From a virus, in the IMG/VR virus record IMGVR_UViG_3300009177_000038, positions 1 through 62,628 of that record: a DNA stretch of 62,628 nucleotides; one strand, given 5' to 3'. The notes beneath the pieces were generated by a model. The model was not told where the DNA came from and did no database searches. It was given only the letters and a program-made list of their open reading frames with translations. Positions within the stretch are counted from its first letter, which is position 1; the number at the start of each line of letters is the position of its first letter. Below are positions 5,936-29,626 of the stretch, piece after piece. The position numbers were made by a program, and so were the translations under genes.

Positions 5936-7438
5936 ATGGCCGATCTATTCCAACCCCCGAACGCGGCCTACCTACGCGATCAGTTTCTGCGCGATCTGCG
6001 CCTCGGAGCCATCGATGCGAACCTAGCGGAGCCGCCTACGCAGCCCGGCACCGATTGGTATCTCCTCGGCGACGGCGTCTCGAACATTTCGATCCTCGGC
6101 TTTGCCAACCTCGAGCAATCCGAGTCCGCGCAGAACATCCTGACCGCGACTGGCGACGATCTCGAAGAGCTCAGGATCGCCGAAGGCTTGCCCGAAGTCC
6201 CACCGGCACCCGCGACCGGCAAGATCGTGATCACGGTCTTGGGCGCGACGACGCTCGCCGACGGGCAAAAGTTCCTCTATCCGAACGGCAAAACGGGCAA
6301 GGTCGTGGGCACGTACGTGGGCCCGGCGAATGGCACCGAGGTAAACGCCATCGCGATCGACACCGGCTCGGTCACGAACCTCGGCGCCGGTGAGACGGTG
6401 CGTTTCATCTCGCCCCCCGTGAACATCGCCATCGAGGCCAAGGTCTCAACGAGCGCGCCACTCACGGGCGGTACAGACGAGGAAAAGGACGACCGTAAGC
6501 GCGACCGCATTCTCAACTCACGGCGCAACAAGCCGGCGGGCGGCAACTGGGCGCACCTCCGCCAGATGGCCCTCGATGCGCTCGGCAGCGTGCAGGATTG
6601 CTACGTCTACCCGGCGCTCGGCGGTCCGGGCTCGGGCAAGGTCGTACCCGTCAAGGACATCGACCCCGACAACCTCGACTTCTCGCGCACGCTATCGAGC
6701 ACGGCGCTAGGCCTGATCCGCGCGGCCATTCAGTCGCAGATGCCGAATCCCCAGCAGGTCGTGATTCAGGCCGCGAACGACTCACCGGCAGACTTCACGC
6801 TTCAGCTCGAGCTTCCCGCGAGCGCGCTTTCGGGCGGCAATGGCGAGGGCTGGACCGATGCGACGCCGTGGCCACCGCTCGTCGTTGGCGACGCAGGGCG
6901 CGTCAGCATCTCGTCCGTCGGAGCGAACCTCGATGCCCTGACGCTCACCGCCGGCACAAGCACAGCGCCCGTCGACGGCCTCACGCACGTGTCTTGGTTT
7001 TCGAGCGCGGACCGCAAGGTCTATACGGCGCTCGTCACCGGCCATTCCGGCTCCGCGGGCGCGTGGGTCGTGAACCTCGATCGTCCCCTCGTCGACAAGA
7101 CCGGCGCCGGACCGACCATCGGCGATTTGGTCTCGCCGACCGCGCAGAACATCGAGCACTACGCCGCGACTTGGATCGACATCATGCGCAAGCTCGGTCC
7201 CGGCGAGAACACCGCGGATCCGGCGCGGCTTCCCCGGGCCAAGCGCCATCCGTTCACGAATGACGAAGACCCGTCGTCGATCACGCGTGCGGTGCTGGGC
7301 AAGTTCACGAGCGCGCACCCGGAGATGAGCGACATCGCGATCGCCTATGCATCGCCGAGCGCTCCCGCCGTGCCCGCGAACGTCAAGACCGCGCCCAACA
7401 TCCTGATCCCGCGCAGCTTCGCGATCTACTCCGTTTGA
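5936..7438 (+). CDS. Baseplate wedge protein, Mu gp47/gpJ-like
   Basis: A 500-residue protein starting 3 bases after the gp46-like stop. The N-terminal half contains the baseplate-J pattern: an early helical part (QFLRDLRLGAIDANL), LGDGVSNISILGFANLEQ, and TATGDDLEELRIAEGLPEVP, where a 'dLdrla..Gl' motif is normal. A beta-rich region with TADGQKF-type sequence (TLADGQKFLYPNGK) follows. Next are LTGGTDEEKDDRKRDRILNS and NWAHLRQMALDALGSVQDCY, which match the conserved 'GGtdaEsDe.yR.R.l' and 'a.P.gvg' sections of J proteins. The wedge ring connects the hub to the fibres and triggers sheath contraction. A C-terminal insert (residues 280-390) is likely an added surface domain. Confidence 0.85.
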   Translation: MADLFQPPNAAYLRDQFLRDLRLGAIDANLAEPPTQPGTDWYLLGDGVSNISILGFANLEQSESAQNILTATGDDLEELRIAEGLPEVPPAPATGKIVITVLGATTLADGQKFLYPNGKTGKVVGTYVGPANGTEVNAIAIDTGSVTNLGAGETVRFISPPVNIAIEAKVSTSAPLTGGTDEEKDDRKRDRILNSRRNKPAGGNWAHLRQMALDALGSVQDCYVYPALGGPGSGKVVPVKDIDPDNLDFSRTLSSTALGLIRAAIQSQMPNPQQVVIQAANDSPADFTLQLELPASALSGGNGEGWTDATPWPPLVVGDAGRVSISSVGANLDALTLTAGTSTAPVDGLTHVSWFSSADRKVYTALVTGHSGSAGAWVVNLDRPLVDKTGAGPTIGDLVSPTAQNIEHYAATWIDIMRKLGPGENTADPARLPRAKRHPFTNDEDPSSITRAVLGKFTSAHPEMSDIAIAYASPSAPAVPANVKTAPNILIPRSFAIYSV

Positions 7439-10257: not shown

Positions 10258-11360
10258 TGACCGAGCTGCGGACGATTCCTCAGTTTCCCGTGCCGAAGCG
10301 GGAAACGCAGCTGATCTTCAGCCTGGCAAGCGGTGCCAATTTCGCACGCATCTGGGTCACGGAGGCCCCGACGGGATCCGCTCTCAAACAGCAGCTCCTG
10401 AAGGCCACGCTGAACCGCGTTGAGGTCGCGACCACGAATGGCGGCGAAGCGTTCCCTTGGAAACAGATCTTCGACGTTGGTGGCAAATACACGCTGATCG
10501 TGCAGGAGTATCTGAAGGGGAGCGGCTACGGCGGCGGCTACGAGGGCGATCCCAACGGCGCAGAATCTGAGACCAAGATCGGTGGGGAAAACACCATCGC
10601 GCTGTTTATCGGACAACGTCTGACGCAAAAGATCGGGCCGGGCTCGGACAGCGCGACACTCGTGCTCTGGGTGTGGGACACAGTGATTCGCCGCACGACG
10701 CTGGCGTTTCATGGCGAGGAATCGCCGGCCATCGTCGCGCAGAGCCCGTCACCCAAGGCCCGCACCGCGATCGAGTCAGCGAGCGTTCGTGCGGCACTCG
10801 TTGCGCTGCGCGACATCGAGGCCTCTGTCGCGGTCGGCTCGATGGGGCCGTTGGTCAGCGACTACGTGATCCGTTGGAACTTCCACGTCACCAACACGGG
10901 CTTTCACGCGAACGGGGACACCAATAACGAATTGCCGGTCGGGCTCGCGAACGCTTCGACGCCCAGTGACCTGCAGACATTCGTCAACACGGCGCTCGCC
11001 AAGATGCGCGCGCACTTTAGCAACGACAACGGACAAGGCGTCGACTCAGCGGATTACCACAATCCGTCGGCGAGCTTGACCGTCGACGACTGGGCCGACA
11101 TGCCGCTCTATCGCAGCGTCGGCTCGCTCGAGGACGCTTACGGCGGCTTCGCAGATCTACATCGCTGCTACGAAGTGCACCGCGCTTCGCTCGCGTACCA
11201 CAGCTCGGCTGACACGACGGCGCTCACGGCGTTGCCGCTGCTGGCGCAGGTGCATGCCGCGTACCTCGCCATTCTCGCGCTCGCTGCACCCGCGACCCCG
11301 CCCGCGCAATCCGACGGTGCGATGGCGCTGATTGGTGTCGCGGGATTCAAGGAGGCCTGA
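10257..11360 (+). CDS. Phage tail/fibre-region protein of unknown function
   Basis: A 367-residue protein starting in the stop of the propeller gene (TGATG). It has an N-terminal beta-rich part (QLIFSLASGANFARIWVTEA), a Gly-rich turn (KGSGYGGGYEGDPNG) and a helical C-terminal half (VRAALVALRDIEASVAVGSM, HRCYEVHRASLAYHSSADTT, LLAQVHAAYLAILALAAPAT). No family is recognised. It is likely a virion protein because it is flanked by receptor-binding genes and shares their overlapping translation signals. An AAGGAGG Shine-Dalgarno sequence for the next gene lies inside its last codons. Confidence 0.45.
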   Translation: MTELRTIPQFPVPKRETQLIFSLASGANFARIWVTEAPTGSALKQQLLKATLNRVEVATTNGGEAFPWKQIFDVGGKYTLIVQEYLKGSGYGGGYEGDPNGAESETKIGGENTIALFIGQRLTQKIGPGSDSATLVLWVWDTVIRRTTLAFHGEESPAIVAQSPSPKARTAIESASVRAALVALRDIEASVAVGSMGPLVSDYVIRWNFHVTNTGFHANGDTNNELPVGLANASTPSDLQTFVNTALAKMRAHFSNDNGQGVDSADYHNPSASLTVDDWADMPLYRSVGSLEDAYGGFADLHRCYEVHRASLAYHSSADTTALTALPLLAQVHAAYLAILALAAPATPPAQSDGAMALIGVAGFKEA

Positions 11361-11361
11361 A

Positions 11362-11817
11362 TTGCCCGGCATACTCGCAATCTCCGCCAGCAAAGTCATG
11401 ACGGGTGGCGACACTGCGCCAGACAACGTCGTCGCCGGCTACATCACGGCCGAGCAGATCGCGCTTTCGACCACGCCGACCGGGACCACGTACGAATGGT
11501 CGCTCGCGAAGCCAACGGGCTCGAGCGCGCGCGCCGATCTCAGCGCGTCGACGGGCGCGTCGGTGTCGTTCACGCCCGATGTTGCGGGCAACTACGGGAT
11601 TGCCTGCACGGTCGACGAGACCACCACGTATACGCTCCTGCTCGCCGTCGCGAACGTCGGGCAGGTCATCACGCTCGGAATCCTTCAGTTCATGCCGCTG
11701 CACGACGCGCAGGTTCCGACGCCCGCGACGGGACGCTCGGTCTACTACTCGATCGAATCCGCGAAGGTCGTCGAGAAGCGACCCGACGGGACCGTGCACC
11801 CATTCACCACGACGTGA
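11362..11817 (+). CDS. Small tail protein, paralogue of the N-terminal domain of the collagen-like fibre
   Basis: The start is TTG at 11362, because AAGGAGG lies at 11348-11354, 7 bases upstream, just inside the end of the previous gene. The 151-residue product is beta-rich. It clearly resembles residues 1-145 of the collagen-like fibre gene at 13042: both start PGILA/AGILA, then share WSLAKPxG/WSIAKPNG, ARADLS/SRSDLS, SFTPDVAGNYG/VFTPDVEGYYV and a PTPATGRSVYYSI/PTPPLGSLAVFVD segment. This suggests an immunoglobulin- or attachment-like adaptor domain used in two copies. It is probably a structural fibre component. Confidence 0.55.
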   Translation: MPGILAISASKVMTGGDTAPDNVVAGYITAEQIALSTTPTGTTYEWSLAKPTGSSARADLSASTGASVSFTPDVAGNYGIACTVDETTTYTLLLAVANVGQVITLGILQFMPLHDAQVPTPATGRSVYYSIESAKVVEKRPDGTVHPFTTT

Positions 11818-13041: not shown

Positions 13042-14367
13042 ATGGCGGGCATCCTCGCGAACAGCGTCTCGGTCACCATGCTGATCGGGGACGAACTGCC
13101 GACCAACTCCGTCATCGGCTTCGTTGTTGGCGAGCAGATTACGCTGAGTCTCACGCCCTCCGCGATGGTCGCGGATTGGAGCATCGCGAAGCCGAATGGC
13201 GCGACTTCACGCAGCGATCTATCGAGCCGCAGCGACCTATCGGTCGTCTTCACGCCGGACGTCGAAGGCTATTACGTCGTCACCTGCTCGGTCGACGGTG
13301 TGCTCTTTTACGTGCTGCGTCTCGGTGCCGTGCAGGTCGCGCCGATCACGGTCACAGGCGCGTGGCAGCTGACGGAGCGCCAGGCGACGTCGATTCCGAC
13401 ACCGCCACTCGGTAGCCTCGCGGTGTTCGTCGACGCGGCTGACCGAGTCCTCAAACAGAAGGATTCGGCGGGCGCCGTGTCGATCCTGCAGGGCCAGCAG
13501 GGCCCCGTCGGACCAGCGGGACCAGCTGGGCAAAACGGAACGAATGGCGTGGACGGTGCGCAAGGCGTCCAAGGCATTCAGGGACCGGCAGGACCACAGG
13601 GGCCGGCCGGCACGCCGTGGGCGCAAGTCGCGTATGGCACCACTCAAACGGGTGTCGCTGACCCAAGCAACCCCGGCAAGTTCGTCACGCTATTCCGCTG
13701 GGGCACGCTCGGTACGAACGTCCTCTACATCGGCAAGGGTCAGGCGGGCGTCAACGAGATCGCGATTCCGTCGATCGTCCTCGACGCCGACATCGACCAC
13801 AACTTCTACATCAAGGGCGTCCTCGCCGCGAAATTCAGCTACCACGGCGGGTTTCAGGGGCTCCTGCTCTCGCAGCAGCGCGTTCAGTTCGTCAACACGA
13901 TCGGGACGGCCGCGCCAGGCTCGCTCTCGGCACCGAACAAGAACTCGTTCGTCTTCTTCGAAGCTCCCCCGCCAGCCGTCAATGTGACGGCACGCGCGCT
14001 CGTCACGCTCGGGCAGGGTGCGGGCAGCACGACCGGCCAAGCGCGCGCGGGCGCATGGGTTGGAGCCGCCGGCTTCGTGAGCACGACGAGCGGCACCGTT
14101 ATCGGTGCAGACGCGTGGCTCAGCGGTTCCACGAGAAACGGTGTCATCGAGGGCAACCTGCTCTTCTGTCGCCCCGTCAATAGCGACATCGAGAACTTCG
14201 ATTTCGCGCCGTTCCCCGCCAACGGGATGAAGGGCGGCGCCATCTTCTTCCCCGCGCAGGCGGCACCGAACGCAATGCCGTCGACTGAAGCGTACGTCTA
14301 CACAGATCCGACGACGCACAAACTCATGATCTGCCAGCCCGGCGAGCTCGGGCCGCGCGCGCTTTGA
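13042..14367 (+). CDS. Collagen-like tail fibre protein
   Basis: A 441-residue protein from ATG 13042. Residues 1-145 are paralogous to the product of the gene at 11362. Residues about 155-195 are a collagen-like Gly-X-Y run (GPVGPAGPAGQNGTNGVDGA, QGVQGIQGPAGPQGPAGTP), as in many phage fibres where the trimeric collagen rod links an attachment domain to a receptor-binding head. The C-terminal 240 residues are Gly/Ala/Thr-rich and beta-like and may be the trimeric tip. The collagen run is encoded by GC-rich repetitive DNA and may vary in length between isolates. Confidence 0.75.
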   Translation: MAGILANSVSVTMLIGDELPTNSVIGFVVGEQITLSLTPSAMVADWSIAKPNGATSRSDLSSRSDLSVVFTPDVEGYYVVTCSVDGVLFYVLRLGAVQVAPITVTGAWQLTERQATSIPTPPLGSLAVFVDAADRVLKQKDSAGAVSILQGQQGPVGPAGPAGQNGTNGVDGAQGVQGIQGPAGPQGPAGTPWAQVAYGTTQTGVADPSNPGKFVTLFRWGTLGTNVLYIGKGQAGVNEIAIPSIVLDADIDHNFYIKGVLAAKFSYHGGFQGLLLSQQRVQFVNTIGTAAPGSLSAPNKNSFVFFEAPPPAVNVTARALVTLGQGAGSTTGQARAGAWVGAAGFVSTTSGTVIGADAWLSGSTRNGVIEGNLLFCRPVNSDIENFDFAPFPANGMKGGAIFFPAQAAPNAMPSTEAYVYTDPTTHKLMICQPGELGPRAL

Positions 14368-16583: not shown

Positions 16584-17402
16584 ATGATCCAATTCATCAA
16601 AGCCGCATGGGCGTGGCTGCTCGCCATCGACCCCAACGTGCCATTCGCGCTGATCACCATCGCGGTGTTCGCGACCATCTACCTCGTACGCAAATTCGCA
16701 CCGCGACAGTGGGAATGGTTTGCCACTCTGCCCTTCCCGTTTCTGCAGAGCGATTCAGCGCTGCTCTGGAGCATTCTCAGCAAAGCTTGGCAATCGCTAC
16801 CCGGCCAATTGCTCGGCGCCGTCATGGCCGCGGTCTCGAGCGGCGTGAGCATCAAGACAGCGATTCTCGGCGTTCTATCCGGCGTCGTCGCTGCAGTCGC
16901 GCACGAAATCGCCAAGAACTACCGAGGCAACGTCGGCAAGGCCGCACCGAAGATCCCGCCCGCGCTCACGCTCGCGTTCCTCGCTGTGCTGCCGTTTTGC
17001 GTGGCGTCCTGCGCGGCGCTATCGGCCGTCGTCCCAATCCTCGCCGAGGTCGCGACCGTGGCCACCAATGCCGAGGCGGCGCTGGATGTCGTGTCGCAAG
17101 CGGCTGACACCTGGTTCATCTCGCATCCCGATGCAGCCAGGCAGGCCGCGATCGACCGCGCGATCGCCGAGTGTCGGCTCGCGCTCGTCGCAGCGACCGA
17201 AACCGCGCAGGGCGCCAAGGACCTCGACGAGCGCCAGGCTGACGCGGCCTTCGACGAGTTTCGAAAGGCCTATGCGGACCTCACGAAGCTTCTCACCGAT
17301 GCTGGCGTGCTTCGCGGAGGACGCTTCGCTGCATCGATCGACGGGCGCGCGCCACCCATCCCGCAACCACTTGCAATGCGGCACTTCGGAGGTGCGCGTT
17401 GA
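16584..17402 (+). CDS. Membrane protein at start of lysis region (holin candidate)
   Basis: A 272-residue protein with GGAGA before ATG 16584. Hydrophobic segments occur near residues 8-38 (AWAWLLAIDPNVPFALITIA), 75-105 (LLGAVMAAVSSGVSIKTAIL, then GVVAAVAHEIA) and 125-155 (LTLAFLAVLPFCVASCAALS, AVVPILAEVATVA). A helical, soluble C-terminal domain follows. It is the first gene of the block that encodes the lysozyme, so a holin role is plausible, although 272 residues is long for a holin and the C-terminal domain is unusual. Its stop overlaps the TTG start of the peptidase gene, so the two are translated together. Confidence 0.4.
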   Translation: MIQFIKAAWAWLLAIDPNVPFALITIAVFATIYLVRKFAPRQWEWFATLPFPFLQSDSALLWSILSKAWQSLPGQLLGAVMAAVSSGVSIKTAILGVLSGVVAAVAHEIAKNYRGNVGKAAPKIPPALTLAFLAVLPFCVASCAALSAVVPILAEVATVATNAEAALDVVSQAADTWFISHPDAARQAAIDRAIAECRLALVAATETAQGAKDLDERQADAAFDEFRKAYADLTKLLTDAGVLRGGRFAASIDGRAPPIPQPLAMRHFGGAR

Positions 17403-18226
17403 AACAGCTTGCCGCCCACCAGCGCCGCGAATGCCGGGGCTACAAGCCCGACGGTCCGAACGTCCAGAAGCGCGACTTCGCGCACTTGCGCGCAACGTTC
17501 GCGGCCTCCCTCCCCACCACTGTCGACCTTCGAGCGTTCGCGCCGGACGTGTTCGACCAAGGGCAAACCGGGAGCTGCACGGGTCACGCGATCGGCGGCG
17601 CGGTCACGTGCGCATTAGCGAAGGCAGAGATGCCGCTGGGCTTCGTCGCGAGCCCCGACTTCATCTACAAGCTCGAGCGGTGCCTCGAGCGAGTGAGTCG
17701 TGAGCCACTCACCGATTCCGGCGCCATGCCCGATGACGGCATCCGGGCGATCTCTCGCTACGGCGTGGTGCGGATGCGGGGGCCAACCTCCGACGGCCGC
17801 AACTCGGACGTCGAACTGGACGGCGTGAACGACGAGCCCGACTTCGGCTCTTTCGAGGCCGGCGCCAAGAAGCTGATCGTGGGCGCGTACGCGATTCTGT
17901 CGACGGGTAAGCAACGCGCGCGTGACGTCGCGTGGGCGCTCGCGCACGGCTTCACGGTGCCGGTCGCGGTCAGTGCGTCGAACGACACCTGGCAGGGCTG
18001 GGAACCCAGCGACGGCCCGCTCGGCGCGCAGCATCCGGTCGAACTCGATCACTACGTCTACATCGTCGGGTACCGGATGGACGCCGAAGGCAACTTCACA
18101 TTCATCATCCGGAACTCGTGGGGCACCGAGTGGGGCGACGGTGGCGACATCGAAACCACCGAAGCGTTCCTCGACCAGTGCGGGGACCTATACGCCATGC
18201 AAATCACCACCGAGGAGGCAGCATGA
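17399..18226 (+). CDS. Papain-family (C1) cysteine peptidase in the lysis region
   Basis: Start TTG at 17399 overlaps the previous stop (TTGA) and has GGAGGT a few bases upstream. All catalytic positions of C1 papain-like peptidases are visible in the 275-residue product: Q54 and C60 in DQGQTGSCTGHA, H218 in LDHYVYIVGYR, and N239 in IIRNSWGTEWGDGGD. No signal peptide or propeptide is evident. In a lysis cassette it could cut host envelope proteins or protein links in the matrix, or mature a virion protein. This is rare among phages, where lysis enzymes normally attack peptidoglycan. The fold assignment is firm; the role is inferred from position. Confidence 0.8.
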   Translation: MKQLAAHQRRECRGYKPDGPNVQKRDFAHLRATFAASLPTTVDLRAFAPDVFDQGQTGSCTGHAIGGAVTCALAKAEMPLGFVASPDFIYKLERCLERVSREPLTDSGAMPDDGIRAISRYGVVRMRGPTSDGRNSDVELDGVNDEPDFGSFEAGAKKLIVGAYAILSTGKQRARDVAWALAHGFTVPVAVSASNDTWQGWEPSDGPLGAQHPVELDHYVYIVGYRMDAEGNFTFIIRNSWGTEWGDGGDIETTEAFLDQCGDLYAMQITTEEAA

Positions 18227-18537
18227 AACTCGCTCTCGTAGTCATCGCGCTCGCGATGGCGTCGCAGTGCTCGCGCGCGCCAAACCCACCTGATCCCGGT
18301 CCGTCCCCAGCTCCAACACCGACGCCGAGCGGAGGCTCGGGGCCGACGACGCCGTGCGAGCAATACTGCGCGGCCCTGCTCGCAGTTGACTGCCCCGAGG
18401 GCCAGGCCGACAACTGCGTCAGCGCGTGCGAACGCGTGCGCGAAGACGACATCGTGGACCTGCGCGTCGACTGCGTGGTCTCGGCACACAGCCAGAGCGC
18501 GGTGCGCGCCTGCGGCTCGGTGCGGTGCCGACAATGA
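18223..18537 (+). CDS. Small Cys-rich lipoprotein
   Basis: ATG 18223 overlaps the peptidase stop (ATGA), with GAGGAGG before it. The 104-residue product has a type II signal (MKLALVVIALAMASQC-S), a Pro-rich spacer (PNPPDPGPSPAPTPTP) and a C-terminal domain with regularly spaced cysteines (CEQYCAALLAVDCPEG, DNCVSACERV, VDCVV, RACGSVRC). The Pro-rich linker after a lipobox resembles outer-membrane spanin subunits (Rz1-like), but the large Cys-rich domain is not typical. It is probably an envelope protein acting in lysis or exported with it. Confidence 0.6.
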   Translation: MKLALVVIALAMASQCSRAPNPPDPGPSPAPTPTPSGGSGPTTPCEQYCAALLAVDCPEGQADNCVSACERVREDDIVDLRVDCVVSAHSQSAVRACGSVRCRQ

Positions 18538-18749
18538 AGCGCGTGCTCTCGCTCCTGGCATTCGTCGCACTCGTCATCGCGATCGCCGCGGTGGTCGTCG
18601 CTTGTCAGCATCGAGACCCCACCTACCCGGGCCCAGGCTGGCCCGACGGCGGTCTCGGCCCCTACGAGCCGGGGCCGCTCGAAGGCCAGAAGCCCGACGC
18701 CGCGGCACCAGCTCCGAGTTCGAGCGCGGACGCGGCTGCACCGCGATGA
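18534..18749 (+). CDS. Small Pro-rich lipoprotein (outer-membrane spanin candidate)
   Basis: ATG 18534 overlaps the previous stop. The 71-residue product has a long hydrophobic signal (MKRVLSLLAFVALVIAIAAV) and lipobox VVAC-Q. A short Pro/Gly/Asp-rich mature part follows (YPGPGWPDGGLGPYEPGPLE) and ends in Ala/Pro. Short, Pro-rich lipoproteins beside an endolysin are typical Rz1-like outer-membrane spanins. The partner inner-membrane spanin could be the coiled-coil membrane protein at 20362, though that gene is not overlapping as usual. Confidence 0.5.
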   Translation: MKRVLSLLAFVALVIAIAAVVVACQHRDPTYPGPGWPDGGLGPYEPGPLEGQKPDAAAPAPSSSADAAAPR

Positions 18750-19009: not shown

Positions 19010-19210
19010 ATGGGAAACTGGAACATCACGATCCGCGGAGTCGGCCGCCACCACAACGCAGATAAGCACCCGCACGACGCGAACATCATGACGGCGGAGT
19101 TCGTGCGCGCGCTCAAGGCCGCGGGTCACACGATCGTCGCCGCATCGATCACGCATGGCGGCGAGGATGACTTGACCAACGTGAAGCCGGAAGACTCGCC
19201 GAAGGGTTGA
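19010..19210 (+). CDS. Small protein of unknown function before the lysozyme gene
   Basis: The ATG at 19010 follows GGAGAAAAGGAAAG, a strong ribosome site, and is preferred over an open GTG-initiated extension from 18860. The 66-residue product (MGNWNITIRGVGRHHNADKH ...) is His/Asp-rich in the first half and contains a helix (AEFVRALKAAGHTIVAASIT). No family is recognised. The 150 bases before it (18860-19009) contain no other convincing feature. Confidence 0.5.
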   Translation: MGNWNITIRGVGRHHNADKHPHDANIMTAEFVRALKAAGHTIVAASITHGGEDDLTNVKPEDSPKG

Positions 19211-19302
19211 ACGCGGGCGCCGACCGCCTCGGGCAGCGCGGGCAGCTGTTCGAGGCGAACGCGCCCATGCAACGCGATGCCGCCCTCGAAGGGAATTGTC
19301 AC

Positions 19303-20100
19303 ATGCTGAATCAACCCGCTCGCCTACACGGCGTCGACGTCTCGCACCACCAAACGAGCGTCGATTGGGACAAGATCGCCAAGACGTCGCAATTCGCGTT
19401 CGTGCGTGCCACGTACGGCCGCACACGCGACCACCTGACCGTCCAGCACTGCGCGCGCGCTCGAGCGGCGGGACTTGCGGTCGGTCTCTACGCGTTCTTT
19501 CGCCCGAGCGAGCCCGTGCTAGACCAGTTCGACGCCATCTGCGCGCAGGCCGACGCAGCGGGCTACGGGGTGGGCGATATCATCCCCGCGCTCGACGTCG
19601 AGCTCGACCCGGTGCCGAAGTCGCAACCTGTGAGCCCGGACTGGCAGGCGGCCGTTCGCGAACTCACGACGTCGCTGGCGCGCTCGTTCGGTGACTGCCT
19701 GGTCTACATCACGCAGCGCGACTTCGGGCTGCTGGGCAAGCCCGCGTGGCTGCTCGAGCGGCCGCTGTGGGTCGCGCATTGGGGTGTCGGCTCGCCGGCA
19801 ACGCCAGCGGGGCGGCCGTGGGCGATTTGGCAGTATGCGGTCGGTCACTATGCGCCCGGGATTCCCGCCGTGCACCCCGAGGTCGTCGGCGCGATCGACC
19901 ACAACTACGCGATCGCTCCGCTGCCGCTCATCAAAGCCCCGAGCGTGAAGCCGCCGGACCCCGCGGATCCGAGCGTCGTCGCGGCCAGGCAGCTGCCGCT
20001 CGACGAGGGCATCAGCGGGCGCGCGGCCGAGAACATCCACGAGGACGAGGCCATACCCGATACCGAGCCCGGCAGCCCGCGTGGAAAGGGGCTCGCGTGA
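19303..20100 (+). CDS. GH25-family lysozyme (endolysin)
   Basis: ATG 19303 with GAAGGG at a suitable distance is preferred to an upstream TTG at 19207. The 265-residue product shows the glycoside hydrolase 25 pattern: GVDVSHHQ with D12, VDWDKIAKTSQFAFVRATYG, a TIM-barrel strand ending in ALDVELD (D98, E100, D102; the DxE pair is catalytic), GDCLVYI, WVAHWG and AIWQYAV, then DHNYAI near the end. These enzymes cut the MurNAc-GlcNAc bond of peptidoglycan. The last 45 residues form a polar tail. There is no signal peptide, so export needs the holin. Confidence 0.85.
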   Translation: MLNQPARLHGVDVSHHQTSVDWDKIAKTSQFAFVRATYGRTRDHLTVQHCARARAAGLAVGLYAFFRPSEPVLDQFDAICAQADAAGYGVGDIIPALDVELDPVPKSQPVSPDWQAAVRELTTSLARSFGDCLVYITQRDFGLLGKPAWLLERPLWVAHWGVGSPATPAGRPWAIWQYAVGHYAPGIPAVHPEVVGAIDHNYAIAPLPLIKAPSVKPPDPADPSVVAARQLPLDEGISGRAAENIHEDEAIPDTEPGSPRGKGLA

Positions 20101-22865: not shown

Positions 22866-24668
22866 CTACCCCGCCGCTTTCTGCGCCGTTGCCGGGGTCG
22901 CCTTCTCACGCGACCTCTTGCGGCCGCGCTGAGGCCTGCCCTTGGAGTTGCACTTGCTGCACAAGTCGTCCTCGACCCATGTGCAACCGCCCTCGCAGGC
23001 CTCCATATCGGTGCAGCCGCACACGCGGCACGTGCTGACGTCGTCGGCGCCGTCGTCATCAACAGGCGTGACGGCGGTTCGCTTGAGCGCCCGCTTGCTC
23101 TTCCCGCGCGCTTTCACCGCCGCTCTGAACTCAGCCGCCACCGTTTCGCGAATCGCCTTCGCGTCGACCTTCAGCGCCGTACAGGCGTCGACCCACAGGT
23201 CGGCACCGTCATTCCACGTCGAAGGCGCCGAGCGACCGATGAGCAGCTCGAACACGAGTCCAAGCAGCTCGGCGGGCGGCTTACCCTCCGCGTACTCATT
23301 GAGCAGCTCCTCGACGGGGCGGCGCATCGAGCCATTCTTCGCCTTCTTGGGGTCGAGCCCACGGCGCTCGCAGAGCTTCTTGCCGACGTCGCTCCAGGTC
23401 GAGGACACCGTGCAGCGCGCGAGCAGCTCGGCGGCGGCAGCAGACACTTTGCCGTCGGCACAACGTTTCTGGAACGCCTCGACAAGCTTCGCTGTGATGC
23501 GCTTGGTGGTCTCGATGCGAATGCGCTGCTTCAGGCGCTCGCGCTTCGCGGCCGCCTCGCGCGTGCGCTCCGCCGTGGTGGTCGGCACCGACTTCTTTTC
23601 TGCCGGCTCCGCCTTGCGGATCGCGGCGTCCGCGTCCTTGCGCGCGACGAGCTCGACGGGAAGGCCCGAGTGCTTGTCGCGAGCGAGCACGATCGGTGGC
23701 GGCTCCTTGCCGAACAGCTGTTTGATGGTGCGCGCCTTGCCACCACCGCGCGGGTAGTGCTTGGAGTCGAGCCGAACGTAGTCGGAGCCGGTGTAACCCA
23801 CCCGATGCAACACTTCCTCCGCGTCCTTCTGGCTCAGCACCTCGCCGCCGGCGTCCTTGTGCCGCTTGGTGCGGATCTTCCAGAGCGCGTCCAGCTTGCC
23901 GCGGTAGCAAACCGGGTCAGTGCAGAGGTCTGGGCTCGAGGCATCGCCGAAGAGCTCGGTCTGCATTCCAGTGCGTTTCGGGCACGTCGTGCAGGGCCCC
24001 GCGCTCGGCACGAGCTCGCCATCGGCGCGATCGAATGGCGCCTCGCCGAGCTTCAGCATCACGTATTGCTCGATCTCCTCGCGTGCATCCGCGACGGACA
24101 TCAGCCCTTCCACACCGAAGCTCCGGCCACCACCGACACGATCGAGCGCCTCCGCTTGGATCTTCGCCGTCGGTAACTTCGCGATCAGGAGCGCGACGCC
24201 GAGCGAGATGCTCTCCGCGTCGAGAGCCGCGCGCGCTTCTTTGGACAGGCTGCAGAGCTTCAGGCGCTGCGCCACGTAGGCGACGGGACGACCAATCTTG
24301 CCGGCGATCCGCGCGACGTCGTAGCCGCGTTTGATGAGCGAGGCGAAACCGTCGGCCTCGTCGAGCGGGTGCATGTCTTCCCGTTCGATGTTCTCGATGA
24401 GCTGCGCCTCGAGCACCTGGTCATCGCTCAAGTCGCGCACGATGCACGGCACCGTGTCGACGCCGGCGCCGACGGCGGCGAGCTTGCGCCTGTGCCCGAA
24501 TACGCACTCGGGCAGGCCGTTCACGATGCGCACGAGCAACGGCTCGAGCACGCCTTTTTCGCGCACGCTTTCGGTCAGCGTCTCTAGCCCCTTGTTCGCA
24601 TTGCGGCGCCGTGGCTGTGTCGGCGAGTCGAGAATGTCGGCGGGGTTCAATAGGCGAAGTTCGGTCAT
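22866..24668 (-). CDS. ParB/Spo0J-family DNA-binding protein with C-terminal zinc finger
   Basis: A 600-residue protein with ATG 24668. The N-terminal 200 residues carry the ParB N-domain and HTH: ILDSPTQPRRRNANKGLETL, the nuclease/CTP-type box FGHRRKLAAV, EAQLIENIEREDMHPLDEA, and IAGKIGRPVAYVAQRLKL. The middle is Cys-containing (CTTCPKRTGMQTELF, CTDPVCYRGK), then Lys/Arg-rich. Near the C-terminus is a Cys cluster (CRVCGCTDMEACEGGCTWVE, CSKC). It is much longer than partition ParB (about 300 residues) and no ParA lies nearby, so a role in phage DNA replication or gene control is more likely than plasmid-style partition. Confidence 0.8.
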   Translation of the reverse strand: MTELRLLNPADILDSPTQPRRRNANKGLETLTESVREKGVLEPLLVRIVNGLPECVFGHRRKLAAVGAGVDTVPCIVRDLSDDQVLEAQLIENIEREDMHPLDEADGFASLIKRGYDVARIAGKIGRPVAYVAQRLKLCSLSKEARAALDAESISLGVALLIAKLPTAKIQAEALDRVGGGRSFGVEGLMSVADAREEIEQYVMLKLGEAPFDRADGELVPSAGPCTTCPKRTGMQTELFGDASSPDLCTDPVCYRGKLDALWKIRTKRHKDAGGEVLSQKDAEEVLHRVGYTGSDYVRLDSKHYPRGGGKARTIKQLFGKEPPPIVLARDKHSGLPVELVARKDADAAIRKAEPAEKKSVPTTTAERTREAAAKRERLKQRIRIETTKRITAKLVEAFQKRCADGKVSAAAAELLARCTVSSTWSDVGKKLCERRGLDPKKAKNGSMRRPVEELLNEYAEGKPPAELLGLVFELLIGRSAPSTWNDGADLWVDACTALKVDAKAIRETVAAEFRAAVKARGKSKRALKRTAVTPVDDDGADDVSTCRVCGCTDMEACEGGCTWVEDDLCSKCNSKGRPQRGRKRSREKATPATAQKAAG

Positions 24669-25715: not shown

Positions 25716-26002
25716 CAGTCGACCGCCTTTCGCAGCCTGCGCGCCGTTCGGCGCGAGAGCATCCGGCGACACGCGATAATGCTCTCCCGCGCCTCGATGC
25801 GGGCGTCTTCGTCGTAGATGCTGCGACTTGCCAACTTGACCAATTTGTCAAACTGCCACCGCGGCAGCTTTTCGAGGCACGGCCGGCAGAACGGCAACTG
25901 AAAACCGTTGGTCCCGGAAGCGACTGCCGGGCGAACGCAATCCGCCTGACAGTCGAGGCCGCTCTCTGCTTCCTTCAGTTCGTGCTCGGCGATCTTGCAC
26001 AT
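25715..26002 (-). CDS. Small Cys-rich protein next to sbcC-like gene
   Basis: ATG 26002 overlaps the sbcC-like stop. The 95-residue product has cysteines at MCKI, LDCQADC, FCRPCLEK and IACRR, a likely zinc-binding arrangement, and helices at the end (RIEARESIIACRRMLSRRTA). Probably a small nucleic-acid- or protein-binding zinc protein. No family is recognised. Confidence 0.5.
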   Translation of the reverse strand: MCKIAEHELKEAESGLDCQADCVRPAVASGTNGFQLPFCRPCLEKLPRWQFDKLVKLASRSIYDEDARIEARESIIACRRMLSRRTARRLRKAVD

Positions 26003-28440
26003 CAGGAAGCGCCCCCGATGTCGATCCGCGCGTCCGCGAGCTCCTGCACTTCAGCGGAGTGCGAAACGAAAAGAACCTTGTCGGCGCCTACGAGCTCGGC
26101 AGCACGGCGCAGCATCGCGACGTAGACACGCGCATTCTCGGGGTCGAGGGCGGCACCGGACTCGTCGCGCACAATGGTTGGACGTTCGACGCCTTGACGG
26201 CGAATCGCCAGCATCGAGAGCGCGAGCGAAAGGGCCTCACCAATCACGACGCGCTCACCCCCGCTGAACGTTTCTCCCGATGCCTCACGCCCGTTGCGCG
26301 TGTCGAGCACGACAACGTCGCAGCCTTCGAGCATGCGCTTGCCGTCGCTCGCCAGGCGTTGCGTGTCGACGCGCACCGTGAAGCGCGGCCCGTGGCACGA
26401 GTGCAGCAGGTCGTTCACCAGCGCGGTGAGCTCAGGCCCGGCGGCGTCAATCTCGAGCGCCTGCAGGCCATCCTTGCCGAGGTCGGCGGAGAGGCGGTTC
26501 CAGTCCGCGAGCTCGGCTTCCGCCCGTGTCCGTTCGGGCTCGAGCTCCGCAAGACGGGCGGCGCCGGCCTGAGCTTGCTCGAGGCGCTGTTCGGCCCGTG
26601 CGGCCTCGGCGTGCGCCGCCTTCGCTGTCTCCACGGCAGCCGCCTGCGCGCGTTGCCACGGCTCGAGCGATGGGTAGGCCGGAAGGTTTTGACCGGGAGT
26701 GGCTAGCAGCTCCTCGACGCCCATGCGCAACGCCTCTTGCGCGGTCGCTAGTTGCGGCTCGAGCTCGGCGATACGGGCCTCGGCCTGCGCGAGCCGCGGT
26801 GCCTTGGAAGCCAGGTCTTCGAGCCCGACGAGGCCTCGTCGGAACTCATTCGCCTGCTCGCGCGCGGCGGTCGCTCCGGTTGCAAGGGCGGCGCGCTGCG
26901 GCTTCAGGTTGGCAATGGAGCTCTCGACGGTCCGGCGCTCCTCGAGGTCGGTCACGCGACGCTGCTCGATGTCGTCGAGTTCTGCGCGATCGCGTGCGAT
27001 GCCTTGGGCGCGGTCGGCTTTGCGCTCGGCGGTCGCAAGTGCAACTTCCGCCGCGATCTCGGCTTTGCGCAGGCGATCGCGTTCCGCGTCCAGCTCGCAG
27101 ATGCGGCGCGGCAATTCCGCGGCTCGTGAGACGGCATCGTTGTCGGTATCGAGCGCTTGCTGCGCGACTACGTCGACCGTGTCCGGATAATCGGCGACGC
27201 TCTCGATGACGTCGATGAGGCCCTTTCGCAGTCCAGCGATGCGTGACTCGGCGCCGGCGATCGTGGTGCCACGAAGCTCTTTCAGCGCATCGTCTGCCAT
27301 CTCGACGTCGGCGCGAGCCTGCTCGAGCGCCATTCGGAGCTGTGGCAACTGTGCGGTCGCGGCTAGGATCGCGGGCTCTTCGGTGAGCTGTGTGCGCAGC
27401 ATCTCGGCGCGAGCCGCACTTCGGCGCTCTCGCTCCTCGATCTGGGCAAGCATCGACTCGAATTGCTTTATGTCGCTCTCGAGCCCCGCAACCTTCAGGT
27501 CCGCGACACTGGCCTTTTTGGTCAAGGTATCGAGGGCCAGCCGCACTTCAGCTACATCCGCGATGGCGCTCTCGATTGCGTCCTTGTCGACGATCAGGGC
27601 CCGGTTGTTCGCGATCCGCGTTTCGAGATCGGCAATCTGCTGGCGGGCCGTGGCTTGCGCAGCGGTGAGCCGCGCTCGCTTCTCGGCCACGGCTCGAGCC
27701 TCTGCCTCTTTCGCCTCGCTATCCCGTACCTGGGCCTCGACAAACGCGAGCTTTTGGTTCGCCTTGTCGAGCGCCGCATCGGCTTCGGCCGCGCGCTGGC
27801 GGGCCGCTTCGATATCGCGCTCTGCCGCCGCCACGTCGCCGCACCGGGCTTGCTCATCCGCGAGCCTGGCCACGGCAACATCGAGCGCCGAGCGCGCCGT
27901 GCGGCCACGTTCTCGCGCGAGCTCGGCCAGGTGCTCGAGTCGCTCCACGCCGAGGATCCGGAGCAACAGCGCCTTCCGCTCCGCTGGCTTGGCGCCCAAG
28001 AAGCCGGCCGCGCCCTGGGCCTGGAACACGGTCGAATAGAGCACCTCGGGCGAGGGCAGATGCGCGGCCGCCCAGGAGTCGTAACTCTTTACCTTGCTAT
28101 CTGGCAGCACGGGCGCGCCGTCGGCGTCGAGCACCACCGATTCGCCCTTTCCAGAGACAACGTCGACGACATGCCGAATCGTCCACGCCTTGCCGTTAAC
28201 GATGCGGGTTTCGAGGCAAGAGTCGCGCGCCGTGGCGAGCGCAGCGAGCGTGCCGCGAGTAGGCGTCGAACGGTACATTCCACCGGGTAGCCCGAGCTCG
28301 AGCAGCGTGGACTTCCCCGCCCCGTTGGCCCCGCAGATCGCGACCACCTTCGCGTCGCGCAGGGCCGCCGACTGAAAGTCGACGGTGAAGTCACCGCGGA
28401 ACGGACCGAGATTCCGAATCGTCACTTGTTCAAGCCGCAT
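26002..28440 (-). CDS. sbcC: SbcC/Rad50-like SMC-family ATPase
   Basis: ATG 28440 overlaps the end of the sbcD-like gene by 11 bases. The 812-residue product has Walker A GANGAGKST (residues 37-45), long coiled coils (about 170-360 and 400-640), then signature FSGGE (725-729), Walker B-like PTIVRDESGAALDPENA (754-770) and a His switch LFVSHSAE (near 792-799). This is the Rad50/SbcC order. It is shorter than E. coli SbcC (about 1050) and no CxxC zinc hook is visible in the middle, so pairing may use another contact. With SbcD it would open hairpins and process double-strand DNA ends, similar to T4 gp46/gp47. Confidence 0.85.
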   Translation of the reverse strand: MRLEQVTIRNLGPFRGDFTVDFQSAALRDAKVVAICGANGAGKSTLLELGLPGGMYRSTPTRGTLAALATARDSCLETRIVNGKAWTIRHVVDVVSGKGESVVLDADGAPVLPDSKVKSYDSWAAAHLPSPEVLYSTVFQAQGAAGFLGAKPAERKALLLRILGVERLEHLAELARERGRTARSALDVAVARLADEQARCGDVAAAERDIEAARQRAAEADAALDKANQKLAFVEAQVRDSEAKEAEARAVAEKRARLTAAQATARQQIADLETRIANNRALIVDKDAIESAIADVAEVRLALDTLTKKASVADLKVAGLESDIKQFESMLAQIEERERRSAARAEMLRTQLTEEPAILAATAQLPQLRMALEQARADVEMADDALKELRGTTIAGAESRIAGLRKGLIDVIESVADYPDTVDVVAQQALDTDNDAVSRAAELPRRICELDAERDRLRKAEIAAEVALATAERKADRAQGIARDRAELDDIEQRRVTDLEERRTVESSIANLKPQRAALATGATAAREQANEFRRGLVGLEDLASKAPRLAQAEARIAELEPQLATAQEALRMGVEELLATPGQNLPAYPSLEPWQRAQAAAVETAKAAHAEAARAEQRLEQAQAGAARLAELEPERTRAEAELADWNRLSADLGKDGLQALEIDAAGPELTALVNDLLHSCHGPRFTVRVDTQRLASDGKRMLEGCDVVVLDTRNGREASGETFSGGERVVIGEALSLALSMLAIRRQGVERPTIVRDESGAALDPENARVYVAMLRRAAELVGADKVLFVSHSAEVQELADARIDIGGAS

Positions 28441-29626
28441 TGGACTCTCCCTCCAACTCGTTCACCTTGGCCATCAATGGCGTGCGGCGCTCGCCAGGCT
28501 CGAAGCCTTTTGAATCCCACAGCGCCTCTAGCTTCTGTTCGACCGTGGCCGCCTTCGCGACTGCGGGCGCGCGCGCACGCGTTTCGGTGCGCACGACCTC
28601 TTCGACCTTCACATTCACGGCGCCAGCTGCGCGAACCGACTCCGCAAACTCAGCGGCTCCGGCCTTCGCGGCCTCACGCTGATCGGCGGCAACTGCGTAG
28701 CGCACCCGCACCTCGGCGCCACGCATCATCACCAGATCGTTTTCGTGCGGCTGCCTGCCGTCGTCGAGGAGGAGGATGCCTCCCTCGGCCCACGTCAGGC
28801 CGACGTGCAGCATCGGCGTGCACGGCGTCTCGACTCGCCTCCAGCCGATGAGCTTGCGCCCATCGAACTCCGCGATGATGTAGCCCTTGGGCTCGAGCTC
28901 ACCGAAGGACGTGCGCCGCGGGCTACCCGGATACACTGCCGGCGCACCGGCGATGTCCCAAGCGTTCTCCATGTGGATGTGTCCGAGCGCATAGAAATCG
29001 GCCTTGGCCAGAGCCAGATCTTCGAGCCCGAGCTCGAAATCGCAGCCTACGAGCGGCTGCCCTGTCGAGACGCGTGAACCGCGCACCATGGCATGCGCGA
29101 GCAGGATGCGCGGAACCTCGGGGGGCTGCGCGTCGAGCCACGTCCCCAGCCCCCGGAGCACGTCACGCAGTGCATCGCCGGCGGCGAGTTCGACCTGCTC
29201 CTTTGAGGCGAGCGGCAGCATCGCGTGGAGGTGCGCGCGCTGCGGCCAACCGAGCATCGCGATAGCAACCCTTGAGTCGGTCTCGGTCTCGATGTCCTGC
29301 ACATCAATCTCGAGCTGGCCAAAGCGCTCGTAGACGTGAACGGGAAACTCGGTATCGAGCCGCTCGAGTAGCGGCAGGTCGTCGACCGCGTCGTGATTGC
29401 CGCGCACGAGCACGACAGGGGCCGCACTCGCCAGGCGCTGCACCCAGCGCGCAACGGCGCGGCGCTCGAGAGGAGTACTCTTACGCTCGTAGACGTCGCC
29501 GGCGTGGAGCCAGAGGGCTACGCCACGCGCCTCGCCGTCTTCGGCGATCCAGTCGTGGATCTCCACGCACTCGGCGAAACGCGAGTGCTCGTCGAAATGG
29601 CTGTCAGCGACGATTCCGATCTTCAT
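28430..29626 (-). CDS. sbcD: SbcD/Mre11-like nuclease subunit
   Basis: ATG 29626 with TGAGG upstream; a longer reading frame into the previous gene is ignored. The 398-residue product shows the Mre11 metallophosphoesterase motifs: GIVADSHFDEH (D8, H10), LHAGDVYE, VRGNHDA, ILLAHAMV, and YALGHIHM, ending in a catalytic His pair. The C-terminal third lacks catalytic motifs and probably binds SbcC. Adjacent sbcC confirms the pair. Likely roles are DNA end resection during recombination-dependent replication, or protection from host RecBCD-type enzymes. Confidence 0.85.
   Translation of the reverse strand: MKIGIVADSHFDEHSRFAECVEIHDWIAEDGEARGVALWLHAGDVYERKSTPLERRAVARWVQRLASAAPVVLVRGNHDAVDDLPLLERLDTEFPVHVYERFGQLEIDVQDIETETDSRVAIAMLGWPQRAHLHAMLPLASKEQVELAAGDALRDVLRGLGTWLDAQPPEVPRILLAHAMVRGSRVSTGQPLVGCDFELGLEDLALAKADFYALGHIHMENAWDIAGAPAVYPGSPRRTSFGELEPKGYIIAEFDGRKLIGWRRVETPCTPMLHVGLTWAEGGILLLDDGRQPHENDLVMMRGAEVRVRYAVAADQREAAKAGAAEFAESVRAAGAVNVKVEEVVRTETRARAPAVAKAATVEQKLEALWDSKGFEPGERRTPLMAKVNELEGESNAA

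Follow-up and report, generated by a model that had tools for sequence, protein, structure and literature searches.

Phages of Gram-negative bacteria have to break the outer membrane as a third step of lysis, after the holin and the endolysin. A published census of 677 phages detected no spanins in 91 of them (PMC6139136). Papain-family peptidases of the xylellain type are already known in tailed phages: their transfer to Myoviridae and Siphoviridae and their presence in Caudoviricetes have been reported (PMC10380794). In addition, a predicted cysteine protease lies beside the holin/antiholin genes in transposable prophages of Leptospira, which is a double-membrane host (PMC8705779). In the excerpts of that report, the protease is labelled a putative endolysin and no lipoprotein partner is described (PMC8705779). 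Here, we analysed a 62,628-b stretch of phage DNA (the window), which is one IMG/VR virus record and encodes a peptidase of the xylellain type together with a small lipoprotein.

The window comes from a contractile-tailed, integrase-bearing phage with genes for TerL, the major head protein, the baseplate wedge and hub and the integrase. No tRNA was found in the window. A TerL search gave six records, including one 11-kb fragment with an identical TerL, and there was no TerL match in 395 Gemmatimonadota genomes. We infer that the host has a double-membrane (Gram-negative) envelope. Elsewhere in the window, the tail-region proteins encoded at 11362-11817 and 13042-14367 have N-terminal domains that are related to each other, as the two proteins match identical sets of genes in relatives; a collagen-like repeat (Pfam Collagen) is present in the latter. 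On the minus strand, inspection by eye suggested an ATPase-nuclease pair resembling SbcC/SbcD at 26002-29626 and a ParB-like protein at 22866-24668.

The original prediction, made from the window alone, was that a papain-type cysteine peptidase with the catalytic residues Q54, C60, H218 and N239 is encoded in a lysis cassette (Table 1). This enzyme assignment was borne out by the Peptidase_C1 family (PF00112; score 41.5 bits, cut-off 20.7 bits, E 2e-10), by the structure of xylellain (PDB 3ois) and by 18 homologues. The gene is the sole C1 match within the 62.6-kb record. The catalytic set is Gln/Cys/His/Asn, in which Gln is the oxyanion-hole residue, and the motifs are DQGQTGSC, LDH and NSWG. 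The closest PDB sequence is xylellain 3ois (E 7e-13, aligned residues 7-249), and the alignment contains a common N-terminal GY.PD...RDF motif. AlphaFold predicted a papain fold (pLDDT 88.8, pTM 0.89); in a Foldseek search, the top PDB match of this model was again 3ois (E 2.5e-15), followed by Lpg2622 and procathepsins. Judging from the predicted fold and the catalytic residues, the peptidase is a xylellain-type C1A member of the papain family. Pfam detected only Peptidase_C1 in it, with no muralytic or cell-wall-binding domain. A hydropathy scan of the N-terminus found no signal peptide, as expected of a cargo that awaits a holin. The second part of the prediction, a TTG start tightly coupled to the preceding membrane protein, also held: the TTG at 17399 is the earliest possible start in this frame, and it overlaps the upstream stop codon as TTGA behind a GGAGG ribosome-binding site.

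Table 1 Features of the peptidase cassette in the window
Feature	Position	Strand	Basis
Membrane protein, 272 aa, holin-like by topology	16584-17402	+	Hydrophobic segments
GGAGG ribosome-binding site of the C1 peptidase	17388-17392	+	DNA reading
C1A (xylellain-type) papain-family cysteine peptidase, 275 aa	17399-18226	+	Pfam, PDB, AlphaFold
Partner lipoprotein, 104 aa	18223-18537	+	ATGA overlap with peptidase
Second lipoprotein, Pro/Asp/Ala-rich, 71 aa, VVVAC	18534-18749	+	ATGA overlap
37-aa peptide, one hydrophobic segment	18746-18859	+	ATGA overlap
66-aa protein, function unassigned	19010-19210	+	ORF translation
GH25 muramidase endolysin, 297 aa with the called TTG start	19207-20100	+	Domain match

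The first five genes in Table 1 form a chain in which each gene overlaps the next. The product of the most upstream gene begins with hydrophobic segments; towards its C-terminus, there is another such segment, with a VASC that resembles a lipobox, and then a helical tail. The search against holin families gave no family match; the only match was a sub-threshold one to QueT. From its sequence, this protein looks as if a holin-like part had been joined to a helical part with a lipobox. In the relative L016, two separate genes (13162-13359 and 13356-13610) are found in its place, and the counterpart in L014 is 10420-10893. For the second lipoprotein, the family search gave only a sub-threshold lipoprotein-signal match. 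The GH25 domain begins at residue 43 of the called endolysin, and therefore its true start may be internal. Small Cys-rich lipoproteins of a different type, with a CC...C pattern, are also encoded in the cassettes of relatives (L014:12169-12468, L016 near 14700 and L024:7046-7384).

A C1-like peptidase gene is present at the same position in all three longer TerL relatives; one-off acquisition by the window phage was thus ruled out. Identities of these peptidases to that of the window are 24-39%, and Q54, C60, H218 and N239 are invariant in them. The peptidases of L014 and L016 fall below the Pfam cut-off, yet match the profile of the clade. Single-sequence scans of the viral and genome collections found nothing. 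The wider peptidase set was obtained by profile-guided patterns, which gave two overlapping sets of viral loci, 27 in the first and 35 in the second, as well as 16 bacterial loci. Named phages with a C1A peptidase are Burkholderia phage FLC9, Lak phages, THSA-485A, MMB025 and Streptomyces phages. All 18 homologues keep Gln, Cys and His, although identity goes down to about 21%, and 15 of them keep the catalytic Asn. In the otherwise conserved pair-bearing peptidases of L044, L045 and L039, Asn is replaced by Gly, Gly and Ser, respectively. Because the catalytic residues are kept across such divergent homologues, their presence is not due to chance. A second, partial C1-like match (E 8e-7) was observed in one pair-bearing record at G012:C1:55493-55666.

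The peptidase gene lies directly beside a lipoprotein gene in 21 otherwise varied records. In all 18 records in which both ends are readable, the lipoprotein family adjoins a clade-specific C1A peptidase. The lipoprotein gene starts at -3 to +18 from the end of the peptidase gene in 17 of these pairs; in the remaining one, L015, it is directly upstream and overlapping. The two genes overlap in 12 of the 18 pairs. A lipoprotein profile was built on fourteen aligned sequences, and in leave-one-out tests 13 of the 14 outranked every other gene of their locus (E 6e-16 to 3e-4), with L015 failing. When 104 loci (18,485 open frames) were scanned with the profile, matches occurred only beside C1 peptidases, and L014, L016, L022 and L039 were added. 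A whole-record scan covered 16 virus records besides the window and one MAG of 4.1 Mb. Each record gave one match, which was the neighbour of the peptidase in every case, including the window; the short fragment G001 gave no lipoprotein match. The idea that Cys-rich lipoproteins are simply common was ruled out by the single match per record, even in the MAG. Because the full alignment was too divergent, scans of the collections were seeded with closer lipoprotein subsets. The pairing was also tested prospectively: with the lipoprotein as the sole seed, the scans yielded three new viruses (L114, L116 and L117), and a peptidase is encoded directly upstream in all three. Among 395 Gemmatimonadota genomes, there were four weak matches, which covered only the N-terminal signal and Pro-linker and had no peptidase nearby.

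The pair-bearing peptidases cluster in a 45-member IQ-TREE phylogeny, with three label changes against 14.3 in shuffles; the tree is midpoint-rooted and support at the deep fork is weak (76/79). The only lone peptidases in the pair-bearing group are those of L025 and L057, and both contigs end at the gene. Peptidases outside this clade are without the lipoprotein partner, and some of those from phages are located away from lysis genes. In L029 and L033, which are T4-like viruses by appearance, the gene of a related C1A peptidase (near 5983-6765) lies amid replication and recombination genes without the lipoprotein partner. In Streptomyces phage Sycamore, the gene is within a tRNA cluster. Taken together, the gene arrangements mark the lipoprotein as a partner that is dedicated to the peptidase and coupled to it in translation. 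Tailed phages were already known to carry xylellain-type peptidases; what seems to be new is the coupled pair.

The partner lipoprotein comprises a signal with the lipid-attachment residue Cys16, a Pro-rich tether (residues 17-40) and a helical Cys-rich domain (residues 41-104). In the alignment, Cys16, C57 and C84 are invariant, and C49 and C65 are nearly so; the window protein possesses eight Cys residues besides the lipid Cys. The AlphaFold model has low confidence up to residue 40, the tether being modelled as disordered; the helical domain beyond it is compact, at a pLDDT of around 92. A PDB fold search with this model found no match, including none to a solved inhibitor. No family match was obtained in Pfam, NCBIfam or PADLOC and none above noise in PHROGs, and tblastn against the phage collection found no relative. 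Thus, the lipoprotein family is undescribed in the libraries and open-access literature searched. The lipobox of the window protein, ASQC, is atypical at -1, and most relatives have canonical boxes. None of the 18 lipoproteins has Asp at lipobox position +2, which, under the Lol rule of E. coli, fits outer-membrane sorting. The protein is probably anchored by its lipid in the outer membrane.

Distances between the pair and muralytic genes were evaluated in the eight virus records with a located GH25 or DUF1906 (PF08924) domain, so that the test is a partial one. In six of the eight, a muralytic domain is within 1.5 kb of the pair, a result reached by none of 200,000 random placements. The exceptions are G009 and G015, in which GH25 is 6.0 kb and 14.3 kb away, respectively. 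The pair has a GH25 gene as its neighbour in L117 and in the contig of the MAG as well, it is followed by genes for PG-binding proteins in L028 and L114, and in L015 a muralytic gene adjoins it; in L022 and L066, none of the neighbours was recognised as muralytic. The endolysin is of the GH25 type in the window and L016 but combines Amidase_2 with PG-binding in L015. The peptidase thus stays while the muralytic enzyme is exchanged; overall, the muralytic partners vary (GH25, Amidase_2, DUF1906 and PG-binding) and the pair is constant. In L043 (5956-7727), which is of the Gram-positive phage type, a C1 peptidase is fused to Cu_amine_oxidN1, and an Amidase_3 endolysin with an S-layer-homology (SLH) domain comes directly after it. 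The original prediction placed the peptidase beside a holin, lipoproteins and a lysozyme. Two lipoproteins and the GH25 endolysin were indeed found there, whereas the holin is identified by topology only. As a check, it had named a homology search of phage C1 peptidases; this search showed that many phages have such a gene next to muralytic ones. The comparison across phages thus supports the proposed role as a lysis-cassette protease, but the prediction had missed that one of the lipoproteins is dedicated and coupled to the enzyme. The putative target may be a protein layer, a protein-bound wall or an outer-membrane tether, and the adaptation to an unusual host envelope that the prediction also put forward is conjectural.

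We propose that the peptidase attacks envelope proteins at the last step of lysis and has the lipoprotein, in the outer membrane, as its dedicated partner, a reading that we consider about as apt to be right as wrong. What the sequence itself shows is the enzyme family with its catalytic residues, the lack of a signal peptide, the architecture of the lipoprotein and the gene order, namely a cassette in which the two genes are coupled and exclusively paired. The peptidase, having no signal, would be made late in the cytoplasm along with the endolysin, and its conserved xylellain-type N-terminal segment may keep it inactive there. The upstream membrane protein would then open the inner membrane, and the peptidase and the GH25 muramidase may be released into the periplasm. 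The muramidase would cut the sugar backbone, and the peptidase may cut proteins that hold the envelope, either tethers between the outer membrane and the wall or a surface protein layer. The lipoprotein would be exported separately and anchored by its lipid, probably in the outer membrane, where the Pro-rich tether would hold the small disulfide-rich domain in the periplasm. With the peptidase made in the cytoplasm and the lipoprotein exported, the two would not come together until the inner membrane has failed. The domain may then recruit, activate or restrain the peptidase. Less likely than not is the wider proposal that the pair is a spanin-independent means of outer-membrane disruption, in which a holin-released protease is recruited or switched on by a tethered cofactor, in varied tailed and jumbo phages of double-membrane hosts.

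Papain-fold lysin domains of the CHAP, NlpC/P60 and C39-like types cut stem or cross-bridge peptides of peptidoglycan. The peptidase might likewise be an accessory peptidoglycan endopeptidase, namely a second endolysin, and the lipoprotein an unrelated lysis lipoprotein. In other phages, C1A peptidases are fused to or lie beside muralytic and PG-binding domains, and the viral fold matches include proteins named "peptidoglycan binding-like", "N acetylmuramidase" and mycobacteriophage Lysin A; the excerpted Leptospira report also uses the name putative endolysin (PMC8705779). However, the window peptidase stands alongside a GH25 endolysin and has no PG-binding domain. It is related most closely to true C1A proteases rather than to CHAP or NlpC proteins, and a second endolysin would leave the exclusive coupling to one lipoprotein family unexplained, so we regard this explanation as unlikely. 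A small disulfide-rich domain is a common design of protease inhibitors. Together with the strict adjacency and translational coupling, this would suit a periplasmic inhibitor or safety catch, in a protease-inhibitor module comparable to staphopain and staphostatin, in lysis or elsewhere. Such a module is rather improbable, given that the catch and its enzyme would be in different compartments until the inner membrane fails, and that the lipoprotein matches neither the fold of a solved inhibitor nor an inhibitor family.

Gene order leaves a similarly small chance that the enzyme is a virion-associated or maturation protease, which processes tail fibres or helps the particle pass through surface protein at entry. 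The peptidase gene comes just after the tail-fibre genes, which include that for the collagen-like protein, and the pair is amid structural-looking genes in L026, L028, L031, L044, L045 and L117. In contrast, neither this position nor such a function calls for a coupled exported lipoprotein, and the steady neighbours of the pair are muralytic genes. Small phage lipoproteins with roles in receptor shielding or superinfection are known, and the product of the lipoprotein gene would sit at the outer membrane. The pair might therefore remodel the surface, shielding or destroying the phage receptor late in infection, like Llp of T5, to spare progeny from debris, or excluding superinfection. This is very improbable, because it does not explain a cytoplasmic peptidase in a lysis operon with muralytic neighbours, and the lipoprotein has no match in PADLOC, PHROG or Pfam. 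A role in anti-phage defence was rejected, as there was no PADLOC match.

The locus thus contains a known enzyme type within a conserved two-gene, lysis-associated module that is previously undescribed in the libraries and open-access literature searched. This module, in which a protease is translationally coupled to its own envelope lipoprotein, offers a concrete candidate for an alternative outer-membrane step, and the pairing suggests a new way to break the protein parts of a bacterial envelope. Enzymes against outer-membrane or S-layer proteins could also be drawn from the pair, provided that it does act on proteins of the envelope.

Among the known systems, the Leptospira protease can be likened to that of the window by its description in the excerpted report (PMC8705779). 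In Thermoanaerobacterium phage THSA-485A (NC_018264), a C1A peptidase gene directly follows that of a GH25 endolysin, which resembles the window cassette; in Alicyclobacillus phage MMB025 (PV686781), the annotated endolysin is a fusion of C1A, DUF1906 and PG-binding domains. These phages differ in having Gram-positive-type hosts and in lying outside the pair-bearing clade, where the tree also places the THSA-485A peptidase. No lipoprotein partner was found in either phage, although MMB025 has a C1 match. The presence of C1A peptidases beside or in endolysins of Gram-positive-type phages fits an attack on protein surface layers but is not a proof of it.

The window pair resembles the two-component spanins Rz/Rz1 in that a small lipoprotein with a Pro-rich tether is encoded in a lysis operon of overlapping genes, probably in a Gram-negative phage. 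The o-spanin of T4, with its C-terminal helix and essential Cys, offers a further likeness (PMC6139136). In contrast to Rz/Rz1, the overlapping partner is a soluble protease and not an inner-membrane coiled-coil i-spanin. No overlapping or embedded i-spanin gene was found in the cassette, in which the other coupled product with one transmembrane segment is the 37-aa peptide without a coiled coil, and the lipoprotein had no spanin family match in PHROGs or Pfam. Furthermore, o-spanins in the census contain at most four Cys residues, against the eight non-lipid Cys residues here (PMC6139136). The enzyme itself is like the xylellain-type short bacterial C1A peptidases (MEROPS C1A; 3ois) in its full-length sequence match, fold, catalytic residues and N-terminal GY.PD...RDF motif. 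What distinguishes the phage clade of the window from the xylellain type is the exclusive coupled lipoprotein and the location in a lysis cassette.
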